Positions 12,807 to 54,621 of a DNA stretch of 64,000 nucleotides are shown piece after piece; the first letter of the stretch is position 1; every line of letters begins with the position of its first letter. A model generated the notes under the pieces. It searched no databases, was not told the DNA's origin, and worked only from the letters and a program-made list of their open reading frames with translations. Origin of the DNA: Pseudanabaena sp. Chao 1811 (GTDB taxonomy: Bacteria > Cyanobacteriota > Cyanobacteriia > Pseudanabaenales > Pseudanabaenaceae). The DNA lies in assembly GCF_027942295.1 (NCBI RefSeq), contig NZ_CP101416.1, positions 2,520,001 to 2,584,000 on the forward strand, given 5' to 3'. A program made the translations under genes and the position numbers.

Positions 12807-13368
12807 AACATAAAACGAGATCTAGCACCCATCATAATGCTTAGAGGCAGAAGGGGTGCTTTGCCCCCTTGCTCCTAGCAATAAATTAACCCAAGTTGCT
12901 ACCTATGGTAACAAGAAAAAAATGCTGCTACAAAGGACAAAAGCCGAGTAACAGCAAGAAAAATGAATGATGAAATTGTAGCGATTTATTGCCTCTGTGA
13001 CGATATTCTCCGAGCGATGAATCATCAAGGTGATATACAGCAACAGATGAGTGATGCCGAAGTAATGACTACAGCTATAGTTGCAGTTGTATATTTTTGT
13101 GGAAATTTCGAGAAGGCAAGAAAACAGCTGTCAGAGTCACAATACATGCCAAATATGCTGAGTCGGAGTCGGTTCAATCGCAGACTCTATAGAGTTGAAC
13201 TTGATGTTGTTTGAAGCTTTGGGACAAGCATGGAAACAACTGAACACCGAATCGGTTTACAGCATTGATAGTTTTCCGATCCCCGTTTGTGACAATATTC
13301 GCATATCAAGGTCAAAAATCTATGATGGAAATGAAGAGTATCGAGGCTATCAAGCCAGCAAGAAACGG

Positions 13369-14711
13369 TACTTTTAGAGACTGTCAAGTAAAATGTGTAA
13401 AGTCTAGAAGCTAGACGTGGAGACGATCCTCGAAGAGGATGGCAAAGCGATTAAGAGCAGGTTTCCAATCACGAATCGGCATCGTCCACTTCTTCGAGAT
13501 ATTCCGCATTGCTAAATAAACGAGCTTGAAAGCAGCATCATCAGAGGGAAAAATCTGTTGGGATTTAATCACCTTCCGCAAACTACTGTTCATCGACTCA
13601 ATCGCATTGGTGGTATAAATCGCCCTGCGAATCTCGGTCGGGAAAGCAAAGAAGGGGATAATGTTTGCCCAATGACTGCGCCAAGACTTGGAGATTGATG
13701 GATATTGCTTGTCCCACTTTTCAGCAAAGAGTTCGAGATTAAACTCAGCCTCCGATTCCGTCGCCGCGCTATAAATAGCCTTGAGGTCAGCACAAACTTG
13801 CTTGCGTTGTTGCCAAGGTACAAAAGCGACCGAGTTTCTGACCATGTGGACAATGCATAACTGCACCTGAGTTTTAGGAAATACCGTCTCAATCGCATTA
13901 GGGAAACCAGTCAAGCCATCGACACAGGCAATCAAAATATCTTTGACCCCACGGTTGTGAATTTCGGTGAGTACTGACAACCAGAATTTCGCACCTTCAT
14001 TCGGAGAAATCCACATACCCAGTAATTCCTTGTACCCGTCCATATTCACGCCCAAGGCAAAGTACAAGGATTTGTTAATCACTCTGCCATTGTCTCGGAC
14101 TTTGATGACTAGACAGTCCAGAAAGACGATTGGATAGACTGCTTCAAGGGGACGGTTTTGCCATTGCTTCACCTCGTCAATTACTGCATCTGTAACATTG
14201 GAAATAAGTGTTGGTGATACTTCAACACCATACATTTCTTGCAACTGGGCTTGAATATCCCTGACACTCATACCTCGTGCGTAGAGAGCAATGATCTTTT
14301 CATCTAGTCCTGACAAGCGACTTTGTCCTTTCTTCACCATCTGCGGTTCAAACTCCCCTTGCCGATCTCGGGGGACTGCGATTTCGGCTACGCCAAAGTC
14401 ACCTTGCACTTTTTTCTGGCTATAGCCATTGCGACTGTTAGTTTGTCCTTCTGGTCTTGGTTCATGTTTTCCGTAGCCCAGATGCATGGATAGTTCTGCT
14501 TCCAATGCTCGCTCCACTAATGCGGTCGTCAGTTGCTTCAGAATGCCTCCTTCTCCGAATAGGTCAGGTGGTGTTTTACATTCTTGCAGCAATTCGTCGA
14601 GCAATTCTTTGCGTATATTCATCAGTTTTAGTGTTGGTAATTGTGTGTCTAGATCATCTCTCTGTATATATCCCAGACTTTACACACTTCACTTTACACT
14701 CTCTACTTTTA
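13369..14711 (-). mobile_element. Complete IS256-family element (copy 1) with 8-bp target duplication
   Basis: The element is 13377-14703, 1327 bp, flanked by TACTTTTA (13369-13376 and 14704-14711). The terminal repeats begin GAGACTGTCAAGTAAAATGT and GAGAGTGTAAAGTGAAGTGT and match at about 25 of the first 29 positions. It encodes one intact transposase and so may be active. It is inserted in the IS982-family transposase gene. Confidence 0.93.
13411..14622 (-). CDS. IS256-family (Mutator-type) transposase, intact
   Basis: A 403-residue DDE transposase. The N-terminal region starts [20 protein letters not shown]; then come the family's Arg-rich GHYER-equivalent [29 protein letters not shown] (first catalytic Asp in LDC), [21 protein letters not shown] (second Asp, DGL) and [19 protein letters not shown] (catalytic Glu, family signature). 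The length is normal for the family and there is no frameshift. It differs from the copy at 55351-56562 at residue 45 (Met instead of Thr) and by a few silent changes. Confidence 0.95.
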
Positions 14712-15144
14712 CGGTATTAAAATTCATTTGATGGCGACAGAGTCGGGAGAACCTGTGGAGTTTTTTCTAACTTCAGGCTCATTTGCTGATGTTAGAGGGT
14801 TGAAAGTATTTCCATTTGCTTTACCTGAAGGCTCTGTAGTCTATGCAGATAAAGCTTACAACGATTATGAAGTGGAAGATTTATTGCTTGAAGCCGAGAA
14901 TATCCAGCTCTCAGCTATGCGAAAACGCAATTCAAAACGACCTGTACCTGCCTATGTTCAATTTCTCCAGCACCATAAGCGCAAAGTAATTGAAACCACT
15001 GGCAGTTTGATATCACAACTTTTACCTAAATCGATTCATGCTGTTACTGCCAAGGGATTTGAGCTTAAAGTCATGCTCTTTGTCCTTGCTCTTAGCGTTA
15101 ATCTATGGGTAGCAACTTAGGTTAAATTAACAACTAATCACTAA

Positions 15145-36304: not shown

Positions 36305-36883
36305 TTCTTGTTCAGTCAAGCTACGCCATTCTCCTACATTTAAATTATCTAAGCGTAAATGCGCGATCGCAACACGTACCAGTCGCAACGTCGGGAAACC
36401 CACGGCAGCCGTCATCTTGCGCACCTGACGATTTTTCCCTTCCGTTAGAGTTAACTCAATCCATGCTGTAGGAATGCTTGCACGAAAGCGAATGGGGGGA
36501 TTACGTGGTGGTAATTCTGGCTCAGCGTCTAATAATTTGGCGATCGCAGGCTTAGTCCGATACCCTTGGATTAGTACACCATCCCGCAATTGCTGCAATG
36601 CCTCTTCCGTGGGAATTTTTTCCACTTGTACCCAATAAGTTCTTGTATGTTCAAATTGCGGGTCGATTAAGCGATGCTTTAACTGTCCATCATTGGTTAA
36701 GAGCAGCAAGCCTTCGCTATCAAAATCCAATCGCCCAACGGAATAAACCTCAGGGATATCAATATATTCTTTTAAGGTAGGACGAGGTGATGCACTGTCA
36801 TCCGTAAACTGGCAGAGCACACCATAGGGCTTATAGAAAAGAATATATTTAGAAAGATATTGGCGATCGCGCATAAGTTTCAT
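36260..36883 (-). CDS. RsuA/RluE-family rRNA pseudouridine synthase
   Basis: A 207-residue enzyme that converts uridine to pseudouridine in ribosomal RNA. The catalytic motif is [16 protein letters not shown] (50-65; Asp53), with the C-terminal [12 protein letters not shown] (binding region) typical of the RsuA branch. There is no N-terminal S4 domain, and the short length is like RluE, which acts on 23S rRNA. Its ATG overlaps the stop of the upstream hybrid kinase (ATGA), and its 3' end overlaps the lipoate-ligase gene on the other strand. Confidence 0.92.
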
Positions 36884-38607
36884 GCATTTAAACGCTGCTG
36901 AATAGAATTAAGAAGTTGCTTGATCTTAATGGGTTTAACTAGATAATCACTGACTCCTGCTGCCAAATAGCGATCGCGATCAACCACATCTCCCGAATCT
37001 GACATGGCAATAATAGGGATATCTTTAGTAATAGACTCTATCTGAATTTGACTAATACCATCCCAAGCAGACATTCCTGAAAGTTGGACATCAATAACTA
37101 TCAAATCAGGTGGGGATAAATGAACATGCTCGATCGCTTGTTGCCAAGATATTGCCCATAGTAGACGATAGCTCTTAGCTTCTAAATAGCTAAAAAAGGT
37201 ATTCATGGTTGCATTATTTTCCCCTATTAACAGAACTAAAGGCAAGCGAGAGGCGGCGGGGGCGCTAATTTGACTTTCTATGGCTTTGTGAGATCTTGAT
37301 TGCTGAGGATCGAGAATATTTTTGGAATTAGGGCATAGCGTACAAGCACTTAGAGGTAAATCAATATTAAAACAGCTTCCCTGATCTACTGTACTCACTA
37401 CACTTACATTACCGCCATGTAGTTCTACTACCTGCTTCACAAATACCAACCCTAATCCAGTGCCTTGATATTTACGATTGAAATCACTATCTATTTGGAC
37501 AAAGGGCTGAAATAACTTGTTGATATTCTCTGGGGAAATACCAATCCCTGTGTCTATTATGGCAATTCGCACAAATCCATCTAGAAGCGAGTTTTGATGT
37601 GATGAATCTGGAGTAAATTGAGTGATTTCTAGGGTAATGCTGCCTCCCACTGGTGTAAATTTAATTGCATTGGTCAGTAAATGAACTAAAACCTGCTTAA
37701 TCCGAACTTCATCTAAATGTATATCGGGTAGATGAGAGGGAAATATAGATATGCTTTGGAGGCGTTTTTGTAATATCTTGAGATTAACTAAACTAAGACT
37801 AGATTCGCAAACTTTTCTAATTGAAGTGCTTTTGCAATTCAATTTGAGTTCTCCTGCTTCAATCTTGGAGATATCAAGAATATCATTAATTAATTCTAGT
37901 AAATGATAGCCGCTCTTATCAATGGTATCTAAGGCTTGCATTTGCTGATTATTAATTGTACCTAAAGCTCCATTCTTTAGCCCTTCTGCCATGCCTAAAA
38001 TAGAATTTAGAGGCGTACGAAGTTCATGACTCATATTTGCTAAAAATGAATCCTTAAGTCTTGTGACTTGAGTTAATTGCAGGTTAACTAGGGTTAATTT
38101 TTCATTTTGTTGGCGTATTTGTTCATCGGCTTGTTGTAAATCAATTAACTTCTGTTCAAGCTGTGCCGCTATATTTTGTTGTTTAATTACCTCTTGCTCT
38201 AAATTTCTTGATAATTCTCTAACTTGCAGATGCGTTTTAATACGCCTGACCAACTCTCTTTCATTAAATGGCTTCGTAATGTAGTCTACTGCTCCAACCT
38301 CAAACCCTCTGATTTTACTATCTACATCCGTTGATGCAGTCATAAAAATCACAGGTATTTGACTAGTTTGATCATTATTCTTGATCCTGCTACATACTTG
38401 GAATCCATCCAGTTTAGGCATATACACATCTAACAGGATTAGATCAGGTAATTTTCGAGATATCAATGTTAGAGCGCGTTCTCCATTATTTGCGATCGAT
38501 ATGTCATATCCTTCATTATTAAGAATTTCTGCAATAATATTCAGATTTGCCTGTTCATCATCAACTATCAGAACTAAAGCTTTTTCACTAGGTGACTGAG
38601 ATAACAT
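36880..38607 (-). CDS. Hybrid kinase: REC, HisKA, HATPase, REC
   Basis: A 575-residue soluble signalling protein. Receiver 1 (about 10-130; [28 protein letters not shown]), coiled coil (130-190), HisKA ([15 protein letters not shown]), HATPase_c ([17 protein letters not shown]) and a C-terminal receiver-like domain ([31 protein letters not shown]). The second receiver lacks the double-acid pocket (IGENN for EDD), although its central Asp remains. It is transcribed after the MITE-broken kinase, 62 bases downstream, so insertion there may have affected its expression too. Confidence 0.9.
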
Positions 38608-38669: not shown

Positions 38670-41636
38670 TTAGCTAATCTCAAGATATTTCAGAATAGTA
38701 CTCTCAATTAATTCGCCTTCAAATTCCATTGCCATTTGGGTTAATTTCTGGATAAAAGGTTGATAGCGATCGCTCTTTTGGCTAATTAGTTCTAAATGTT
38801 GCGTAAATCTCAGAAACATTCCTTTTTGGGATAGCTCTAAGAGAATACGCAAATCCTCAGATGAAGGTGCAATTATCTCTAGATTACTGGCTTGATTCTC
38901 TGTAAAGTTAGGTAGTTTTTTTACTTCTTCATATTTCCATGTCAGTTGTAAATATTGAGAGATTAACTGTAATAAATAGTCAACGTCGATAGGCTTTGCC
39001 AAGAAAGCAGTACCGCCCATTTCTTCAGTTTTTTGTCTTTCTGCATCCGATACCGATGCTGAGGATACAATCACAACTAAATCCTTAATTGCCATGTCAT
39101 TACGGATTTGTGTCAAAAGCTCAAAGCCATCCATAACTGGCATAATGATATCTGTAATGATCAGATCGTAAGACTGCTGCCTAATTTGAGTTAAAGCCTC
39201 TTGCCCATTCCCCGCTTCATCAACTTCAAAACCGATGGTTGTTAACAAATTAACAAGTACCGAACGATTTTCCCAACGATCATCTACAACTAGTAAACGT
39301 CGAGGTTCACCGTCATATCCCACTATTTGTCTACCATTCTCCGCCAATACTTTCTGTTCACTACTACTAGTTATTTCACAAACTATATCAAAGCTAAAAG
39401 TACTGCCTTGTCCTAATTCGCTACTAACTTCAATGCGACTTCCCATTAAACCTATAATTCTTTGACTGATTGCCAAACCTAAGCCTGTTCCTTCTACATG
39501 GCGTTTCTTGTTGCCAACCTGTTCAAAAGCATCAAAGATTTTTTCTTTATACTGATGATCAATGCCAATCCCCGTATCTTCTACTTGAAAACGAAGCAAT
39601 ACTTGTGTAGATATTGCAGATTGATCGTAGCTTGAGGATATTTGATTTGGAATATTTTGAGAGCTTAAATTTTGGATGCTAAGGGTGACATTTCCTTGGT
39701 CGGTAAATTTAATGGCATTACCGATTAAATTAATTAACACTTGTCGTAGCAACTTCTCATCAACAAAAATGCCCTCTGGTAGATCTTCATCCAAGTTAAC
39801 AATAAGTTGAATCCCTTTTTTCTCTGCTCGTAATCGACATATCTCTACGACACCTTGCAAAAAGGATTGCAAATGAATCGCCTGCGAAGTGATTTCTAAC
39901 TTACGCGCTTCTATTTTGGATAAATCTAAAATGTCATTAATAAGGGTTAACAGATGAGAACCACATTGATGAATAATATTAATCCCTTGACGTTCTTTTG
40001 AGGTGATCGCCTTCGAGCGACTGAGAATTTGAGTATAGCCCAAGATCCCATTGAGGGGTGTGCGTAGCTCATGGCTCATACTTGCCAAGAATTCACTTTT
40101 GGCTTGATTGGCGGCATCAGCTAGTTCTTTAGCCTGACTTAATTCAATGGTTCTATCCGCAACTCTTTGCTCTAGTACCTCAAAGGATTCTTTGAGTTGT
40201 AATGACATTTGATTAAAGGAGTTGGCCAAAACTTCCGCCTCTAAAATTCCCTGAGTATTTACTTCCTGCTCTAAGTCACCTTCGGCGATCGCTTTAGCCG
40301 CGATCGTTAGTTTTTTCATCGGTGCAACAATCAAACGCGAACTAAAGAACCCAATGCCAATAGTAGCCAATAACGTGAGCAGACAAAGCAATATGGTAAA
40401 AGTAGTATTTTTAACCCAAGTTGCTACCTATTAAAAATCGGCTCAAAACAAGTTAAAAACAGCCTCGCTAAGTCCAAAATGACGCTATTTTTATATAAAA
40501 ATCTAGCATTTTTTATTTTAACTTTAGTCTTAAATGAATAGGTAGCAACTTGGGTTATTTTTATTGATTGTCTCCATAAAATCATCTTCAGGTACGACTA
40601 AGACAATAATCCAGTCAATACCACGCTGATCTTTGATGGGGAATACTTCCACAAACTGTCTTTTGCCATCAAGATCAAAATCTAGTTGTTGTCTCGCTGA
40701 AATCCCTCTAACTCCTTGCGAGGATTTAGTTAAATGTTTAATTGTAGATTGAAGTAGATAATCTGGGCTTTGAAAAGCTTGGATTTTAATTGCTTTATTG
40801 CCTTTAATAATGAATGGTTGTGAGATCTTAGAACTGGCAAGTAAATCTTCTGTTTCACGTTCAATCGCAAATACTTCACTATTTCGAGTAATTTGGAGAT
40901 CTTTATCTTTGATGACACGAGTCAGATTTTCTAGATCCAAGGTTACACTTATGACCGCCAGCAAGTCCTGTTGATTAGCATTTCGATATAATGCTTGGCT
41001 CAAACTCAACCCCAATGCAGGTTTTTGAGAACGTGCTAGGGAAAAGATCTGAGTCCAACTAGCTTTTGTATTGTTGATTGCCTGTTTATACCAAGGGCGA
41101 TCGCGAGGATCAAATTTTTCTTTGGCAATTAAGTCTGTACGTTGCCCTTGAGGATTAAGTTTATAGACAAACCGATTTGGTATGGTCGTTTGATCGCGAA
41201 TCTTAACTATGTTCTGACCATCTTCTAATTTTTGATATAGGATAAAATCTCCATTGGGCTTTCCAACCTGCCAGAGTCCACTTGGTGCAATATTTACCAA
41301 ATTTAATAGGTATTTATCTAAACTAGACAAATCATCAAAATACCCATCCTCATTAGCGAGATCAGCAACTACAAGATCGAAAAGAGAATACAACTGTTCA
41401 AAATAGTGGTTAAATTGGTTCTCAATATTATTACTTGCCTCAGTCCGTAGTTGAGAGGCAACATTATTTACTGCTTCTCTTCCATTTCGTAACGATAGCC
41501 AAGCAGTTAGCCCCACTGCCACAAATGTTTGCAGAACAAAGGGTATCACGATCAGCGATCGTAAAGGGATAGAAACAAATCCTGTACGACTAGATTGATT
41601 AAGTTTATTCTTAGATTTAAGATTTTTAGCATTCAT
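38670..41636 (-). pseudogene. Cache-HAMP hybrid sensor kinase split by a MITE
   Basis: The N-terminal piece (41636 down to 40530) has a transmembrane segment (about 26-45) and a Cache-type periplasmic sensor (FILYQKLEDG, DPRDRPWYKQAINN, WIIVLVVPE). The C-terminal piece (40391 to 38670) has the second transmembrane segment, HAMP ([20 protein letters not shown]), HisKA ([15 protein letters not shown]), HATPase_c, a receiver ([24 protein letters not shown]) and a 90-residue tail. Removing 150 bp (MITE plus one target copy) joins [19 protein letters not shown] in frame, giving 938 residues. As it stands, the sensor half ends in NPSCYLFI from the MITE; the kinase half could only start at a TTG. 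Confidence 0.93.
40414..40555. mobile_element. 142-bp MITE with IS982-type ends
   Basis: Perfect 19-bp terminal repeats ACCCAAGTTGCTACCTATT, flanked by the 8-bp duplication TATTTTTA (40406-40413 and 40556-40563). The ends match 18 of 19 bases with the left end of the IS982-family element at 12889, so an IS982-type transposase is the likely mover. It is non-coding inside and has inserted into the sensor kinase gene. Confidence 0.93.
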
Positions 41637-52724: not shown

Positions 52725-54621
52725 ATGGCTATTAGTAGAACCTCTCAAATCACAGGTATTCTCGAAAAAAGGCAACCTCTTGCGAGAAGAGTTGCAGAAG
52801 TAGAGTCGAATCTTAAAACTCTTGCCTTAGCATTACAGGATCTAGATAAATACCGTAGTCAATTAATATCAAAAATTGATGATCTTGATAGCATTGGACG
52901 CTTACAGGAAATAAACCTTACAGGTATCCAATCTAGTATCAATGAAGAACTGGGGGCTTTAGGTAAACTAAAAAATCGATTTTCACGCAATACGCTTAAT
53001 ATTGGCGTGATTGGAAGGGCGGGACAAGGTAAAAGTCGATTACTACAAAGGTAATTGCTCAACCTAGAAGAAATAAAGGTTTCAGCCATTTTGATGCATC
53101 AAAAAACACCTAAATGATTCCATTCTCATTAAGTAAACGATAAATTACTATTTTATTTATTAATTTATAAAGATAATCAGTAATTTGCCAGTTATATGAA
53201 CACTGTTTTTTGTTGATTCTTCTAGGTTGAGCAGTTACCTACAAAGTTTATCAGGGCTATCTGATGAAATTCCTACTGGCGATCGCTCCCATTGCACAGG
53301 TGTTCGTAGTACGATTCATCACAATCCGAACGTAGAAACCTATGGGGAGATTTGGTTTCATTCTGAGCGATCGTTTTTGAATGAGGTAATCAATCCTTAC
53401 TACGAAAAGTTGCGGTTAGGCGTTAAACCCTTTGCTTTAGATGAGTTTGCGAGAAATCCTTTGCCACCACTTCATCAAGACTTTTCAGGGCAAGCTGAGT
53501 ATGGGGCAATGTATGAACATTTTCGTAAGTATCATACGAACTTTGACAAGTACAAGCACTTATTGAGAGAGGCATCACCCCATCGAATTTCTAAGGAGCA
53601 AATTCGTGAATATGTGGCTCAGGATGCTCCTGACGGTCAGAGAGTTTTCTTTAATTACTTAGCTGTTCAAGAAGCCAAAATAGTTTGTTCTTTTCCAAAT
53701 ACTGATGTTGGACAGATCACTTTAATCGATATGCCAGGTTTGGGGGATACGGGACTTGGCGATGCGGAACGATTGATCCAGATTTTGGGGCAGGATGTTG
53801 ATGTTGCTTTGTTTGTGCGAATGCCAAGACCACCGAGAGATTATTGGGCGGATGTTGATGTCAAGCTTTACGATACAGCCCGTTCTGCTTTAACGGATTT
53901 ACCGATTAATCTTTGGTCATTTATTGTTTTGAATAAGACTGATGCAACTTCTCGAATGGGCGACAATCTCGTTTATTGCGAGGATTTGGAGAATTCGCGA
54001 GAAGCTAGTCATATTAAGGTAGTTGATTGTATAACGGCTAATTGTGCGGATCGCCAAGAAGCAAATCAAAAAGTCCTCGATCTCGTGCTTGATTATTTGA
54101 CGCTAAATATTATTGATTTAGATCAGCAGTACGCTTCTGCCTGTCAGGAGCGACTAAGCAGGTTACAGAGTGCTGCAAAAATAGAGATTGAGAAAGCTAA
54201 AACAGCTTTGGGGATTAGCGCAAAAGGAGATAGTTGGTTTCCAGTTTTTGTTAATTTGTTCGATCAACTTTGGGAAGATCTAACTGTAGGTTTAGAGGGT
54301 TTACTGCGAGAATTACGATATCAGCGTGACGCGCAGGATATTGATTTCAAAAATCAAGTCAATGCTGCGATACAGAAATGTAAAGAGGATACGGGGATTC
54401 CGTCTATTGCCGATATTAAGGCTCTCCGTGATAAGGAAGCTGCTTATGGTATTGCCTACAACAAGTATCTTCATGAAATACGCGCCCACTTGTCCCAACA
54501 TTTCTTGACTTTAGATGATGGTTTGAAGCAATCGCTTGAAGGGATTAAGTCTCAGGTTGTAGATATATTGAGCAAACAAGGTAAGTTGAGTGCGTTAACC
54601 AACAATCAAGGCAGTGAATTC
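52725..54621 (+). pseudogene. Dynamin-like GTPase gene broken by a MITE and truncated by IS256
   Basis: The first part (52725-53050) has an N-terminal coiled coil and the P-loop GRAGQGKS (G1, about 97-104), ending at LLQ. After the MITE the frame continues SLSGLSDEIPTGDRSHCTGV (G2 region), with G3 LIDMPGLGDTG and G4 LNKTD, then a helical stalk-like region. Taking out 196 bp (MITE plus one target copy) restores one frame of at least 567 residues. The 3' end is cut by the IS256 end at 54622; LFERFPN and stop after 56644 may be its lost C-terminus. Two independent hits mean the product is not made whole. Confidence 0.88.
53051..53238. mobile_element. 188-bp MITE, second family
   Basis: Terminal repeats start GTAATTGCTCAACCTAGAAG at the left and GTAACTGCTCAACCTAGAAG at the right (one mismatch in 22 bp). 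The flanking 8-bp duplication is CTACAAAG (53043-53050 and 53239-53246). The AT-rich core is non-coding. Its ends differ from the IS982-type MITE at 40414, and no matching full element is present in the window. Confidence 0.92.

Follow-up and report, generated by a model that had tools for sequence, protein, structure and literature searches.

Structure of the split kinase gene

The window covers 64 kb, positions 2520001-2584000, of the 4.73-Mb single-contig genome of a Pseudanabaena strain and contains a histidine kinase gene (41636-38670, minus strand) that is interrupted by a 142-bp MITE. The features of this locus are as follows.

40530..41636, minus strand: N-terminal half of the kinase, with TM1 and the double Cache sensor domain (368 aa, the final 8 residues derived from the MITE)
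40414..40555, no strand: MITE of 142 bp with perfect 19-bp terminal inverted repeats (ACCCAAGTTGCTACCTATT / AATAGGTAGCAACTTGGGT)
40406..40413, no strand: target-site duplication TATTTTTA, copy 1, found once in the empty site of the relative G025
40556..40563, no strand: target-site duplication TATTTTTA, copy 2, completing the 8-bp direct repeat
38670..40391, minus strand: C-terminal half of the kinase, with TM2, HAMP, HisKA, HATPase_c, and receiver (earliest in-frame start, the TTG at 40391)
36880..38607, minus strand: next gene, a receiver-HisKA-HATPase-receiver hybrid kinase, 62 bp downstream and syntenic in the relatives G025 and G007

The element, its inverted ends, and its 8-bp duplication, all reported in an earlier note on this DNA, are exact to the base, and the position just before the second transmembrane helix was also borne out. 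The MITE and one 8-bp target copy together make 150 bp (50 codons), so that the frame is kept, and reading the flanks without them yields a single 938-residue open frame, as the same note had proposed. The order of the encoded protein is TM1 - double Cache - TM2 - HAMP - HisKA - HATPase_c - receiver, and the Cache, HAMP, HisKA, HATPase_c, and receiver domains all lie in one frame here once the element is removed, as they do in the relatives G006 and G007. In the family search, HAMP, HisKA, HATPase_c, and receiver all score over their cut-offs, whereas of the two sensor models, MCP-like_PDC_1 scores 28.2 bits against a cut-off of 27 and dCache_1 scores 41.6 bits, slightly below its cut-off of 45. 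This domain order is like that of cyanobacterial Cache-HAMP hybrid histidine kinases, from which the present gene differs only by the cut at the Cache/TM2 boundary, directly before TM2. The sensor half belongs to a large family, with 11 matches in its own genome.

The sensor ORF (41636-40530) ends in NPSCYLFI, the eight residues that the earlier note had read from the MITE. The downstream half is open over 573 codons. Its TTG at 40391 falls within TM2, and no Shine-Dalgarno-like sequence was found ahead of it. The claim that this TTG is the only possible start of the catalytic half was too strong, since in-frame ATG codons are present at 40319 (in HAMP), 40208, and 40079. A scan of 40300-40700 found no sigma-70-like promoter, and a promoter and terminator scan of the MITE and its vicinity found neither. 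The downstream hybrid kinase gene (36880..38607) is a possible target of polar effects.

The MITE carries no transposase gene, its longest open stretch being about 42 codons. In one orientation and frame, these codons form an identical tail on the reading frames that enter the copies at three other loci (L001, L006, and L013). Among the pairs of inverted 15-mers at most 400 bp apart in the window (40 of the 41 listed), the pair at 40414-40555 is the only one with a flanking 8-bp direct repeat. Because it is the sole such flanked pair among those listed and the same 142 bp occur 12 times in identical form in the genome, the inverted ends and the duplication are not due to chance. Folded as RNA, the MITE forms a long stem (-46.7 kcal/mol, z = -6.5), which is expected from its long inverted ends.

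The window also contains a second MITE-like element (53049-53240) of about 190 bp, with imperfect inverted ends of about 23 bp (GGTAATTGCTCAACCTAGAAGAA) and all or some of TACAAA as a short direct repeat at its flanks. Another copy, 99% identical, is present at genome positions 2477535-2477722.

The MITE family and its IS982-family partner

A sequence search of the genome identified 16 full-length copies of the MITE, 12 of them identical, together with a diverged copy and another that is interrupted by an IS630-family element. All 17 copies that were measured have target duplications of 6 to 8 bp, with patterns ranging from TA-N2-TA to TA-N4-TA (6, 7, or 8 bp) and slight deviations in two copies. 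The 8-bp duplication at the kinase is thus one length in a range, since duplications of 6 or 7 bp occur at other copies. Most copies are intergenic, as is typical of such elements, and 3 of the 17 examined lie within genes, namely, the kinase, a Uma2-like frame at L016, and a PIN-like frame at L006, the latter two assigned by eye from their reading frames. At L004 (about 1430-1700), a MITE copy is nested in another short repeat, a piece of which, about 49 bp long, is also present at dozens of sites in G025 and several in G007. A 1,172-bp sequence at genome positions 390155-391326, considered as a parent of the MITE, proved to be a copy of the MITE that an IS630-family element had entered at a TA.

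An IS982-family element of 907 bp at genome positions 722287-723193 has a left end whose 18 bp are the first and last 18 bp of the MITE, and it is flanked by the duplication TATTTA, which is of the same type as those of the MITE. It encodes an intact transposase of 276 aa that scores 192.7 bits with the NCBIfam model NF033520 (IS982; cut-off, 130) and 61 bits with the Pfam model DDE_Tnp_1_3 (cut-off, 27). This is the only full-length copy of the transposase gene in the genome, and the remaining IS982 copies are broken. One of these lies in the window.

12889..15122, plus strand: IS982-family insertion sequence that shares its ends with the MITE and is interrupted by an IS256-family element; the target duplication TAAATTA is intact around the pair
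13411..14622, minus strand: IS256-family transposase within this IS982 copy

Because the ends and the type of duplication are common to both, the MITE is presumably mobilised in trans by the IS982-family transposase. An origin of the MITE as a simple internal deletion of the element at 722287-723193 is not supported, as the match is limited to the ends. The 142-bp element is short and has inverted ends, a target duplication, dispersed copies, empty sites, and a partner with the same ends, and it is a MITE by the criteria used for bacteria; this identity, proposed in the earlier note, is supported by the identical genomic copies and the IS982 partner.

Across the genus, a close IS982 transposase, whole or fragmented, is also present in the genomes with many MITE copies (the present one, G014, and G021). 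G015 and G010 contain the MITE in few copies, along with a close IS982 transposase, and G020 has three MITE matches and no match to the IS982 transposase. The search found zero copies of the MITE in the three nearest relatives (G025, G006, and G007), from which the close IS982 transposase is also missing, and only distant IS982-like transposases with about 30% identity or less are present there. The MITE was not found in searches of other genera of Pseudanabaenaceae. A plasmid search yielded one partial match (77%) on a plasmid of Pseudanabaena galeata, and a search of phages found none.

Empty sites in relatives and age of the insertion

In G025, G006, and G007, the orthologous site is empty, with a single target copy and without the element. 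The kinase of both G006 and G007 is a single open frame of 942 residues, and the gene order around the kinase is conserved in G025 and G007. The earlier note had suggested a recent knock-out, which these empty sites support, as does the intact gene in two of the three relatives. It had named as evidence to the contrary the same split fixed in related strains, and none of the three close orthologues (0/3) has it. At another MITE site, L007, both flanks match G025 and the element is absent, and at L004 and L002, the flanks in G025 and G007 are too diverged for an empty site to be located.

The kinase gene of G025, the nearest relative, is broken at codons 284 to 287 by an unrelated insertion sequence of 1,417 bp at a different site (L111 2571-3987, corresponding to G025:C1 about 2774570-2775986). 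It is flanked by the 10-bp duplication GCTTGGATTT and encodes a transposase of 435 aa with a weak match to DDE_Tnp_1, below every Pfam and NCBIfam cut-off. The kinase gene has been struck twice, independently, in two close lineages.

Between the present genome and G025, dS of the kinase is 0.13 and dN/dS is 0.17 over the whole gene, a ratio that fits a gene intact until recently and stems mostly from the period before the insertions. The 12 identical MITE copies set a limit of about 0.2% change per site since their burst (0 changes in 11 x 142 sites, 95% limit), an apparent age that gene conversion among copies could make too low. Compared with the dS of 0.13, this limit makes the burst much younger than the split between the present genome and G025, which is consistent with the zero copies in G025. 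In the downstream half, the ratio of replacement to silent changes is about 30:34 on the branch of the present genome versus 11:30 on that of G025 (p ~0.04), where the counts are rounded values derived from pairwise counts and p is uncorrected for the choice of test; the replacement excess is slight, and little weight is given to it.

The sensor half (window about 40750-41500) is about 99% identical to that of G025, with most of the surroundings at 76 to 96%, and its dS is 0.05 versus 0.19 to 0.85 in the surroundings. This stretch is likely a recent recombination tract.

Interpretation of the interrupted gene

It is highly probable, in our assessment, that a single gene for a membrane-bound kinase of 938 codons was recently turned into a fresh pseudogene by the insertion of a MITE mobilised in trans by an IS982 transposase. 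The resident IS982-family transposase would act on the non-autonomous MITE, whose recent insertion would have used a TA-N4-TA site of the Cache-HAMP-histidine kinase-receiver gene. The split halves could not be expected to relay a Cache signal via TM2 and HAMP to the kinase, and the downstream half, if translated at all, would be a kinase without a sensor. Judging from the sequence of one genome of the species, the kinase was very probably switched off by the MITE. The full kinase core and possible internal starts retained by the downstream half count against a knock-out. Nothing points to a gain of function from the insertion, given the null promoter and terminator scan and the absence of the split in close relatives.

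Those internal ATGs, and a downstream frame so far undamaged over its 573 codons, count in favour of both halves being made and having acquired a sensor-independent or two-protein function. We regard such a split but working system as very unlikely, since 40300-40700 lacks a sigma-70-like promoter, the TTG at 40391 is inside TM2 with no Shine-Dalgarno-like sequence ahead, the split is missing from three close orthologues, and the replacement excess on its own branch, a weak signal, falls in the downstream half. Slightly less credible still is a reversible ON/OFF switch, in which precise excision of the MITE restores the kinase in part of the population. The frame is indeed restored when the 142 bp and one 8-bp target copy are removed, the genome has one intact IS982 transposase gene, and the 8-bp direct repeats could permit host-mediated precise deletion. 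However, frame restoration, the sole argument for switching, follows the precise excision of any transposon; neither an excision product nor a dedicated recombinase was seen in the one genome; and the MITE copies lie mostly between genes, as for a plain mobile element. The literature searched holds no report of frequent precise excision for IS982-family elements, and in a survey of archaeal plasmids, insertion sequences were deleted imprecisely more often than precisely (PMC4390865), which also counts against a switch. Although assembly can put a 142-bp repeat in the wrong place, an assembly or sequencing artefact is hardly conceivable here, as the genome is a single contig, the exact 8-bp duplication is of a sequence that is single in the empty orthologous site, and every measured MITE copy has its own duplication. 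A sequencing error in the junctions, which the earlier note had raised, is likewise very unlikely, given that the element is multicopy and that relatives have exact empty sites.

The independent insertion in the G025 orthologue, by another element at another site, suggests a further reading, in which the kinase is harmful or disfavoured in a Pseudanabaena sub-clade and its loss is favoured, with different mobile elements in each lineage. This is unlikely, though less so than the alternatives above; two events do not demonstrate selection for loss, and mere dispensability in a large family (11 sensor-half matches) gives the same picture. Parallel loss would in any case supplement the recent MITE knock-out as the main explanation, not replace it.

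Comparison with known MITEs and significance

A MITE with IS982 ends, MITECca01, is known from Cardinium (PMC9769881). Both it and the present element are short and non-autonomous, have the ends of a resident IS982-family element, are lineage specific in their spread, and are mostly intergenic and seldom within genes. The Cardinium element is about 240 bp long with 169 copies and retains some internal parental sequence, whereas the present one is 142 bp long with 16 full-length copies and matches its partner in the 18-bp ends only, and the host phyla are unrelated. In cyanobacteria, MITEs have given rise to pseudogenes in Anabaena sp. 90 (PMC3542288), and insertions of MITEs in mcy genes of Baltic Anabaena are cited in a review (PMC10969869). 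In all these cases, as here, cyanobacterial MITEs interrupt chromosomal genes. Copies inside ORFs number 15 of 147 in Anabaena sp. 90 (PMC3542288) and 3 of 17 here, and the MITEs of that strain are without a matching insertion sequence (type II), whereas an IS982 element with the same ends is present here. No MITE described in Pseudanabaena was found in the literature searched. IS982-ended MITEs and pseudogene formation by MITEs in cyanobacteria are thus already known, and the knock-out of the kinase is an ordinary effect of mobile DNA. The locus provides a clean and recent knock-out by insertion for which sister species have intact orthologues, shows how a single gene can appear as two in annotation because of a MITE, and documents a Pseudanabaena MITE family that travels with IS982-family elements.
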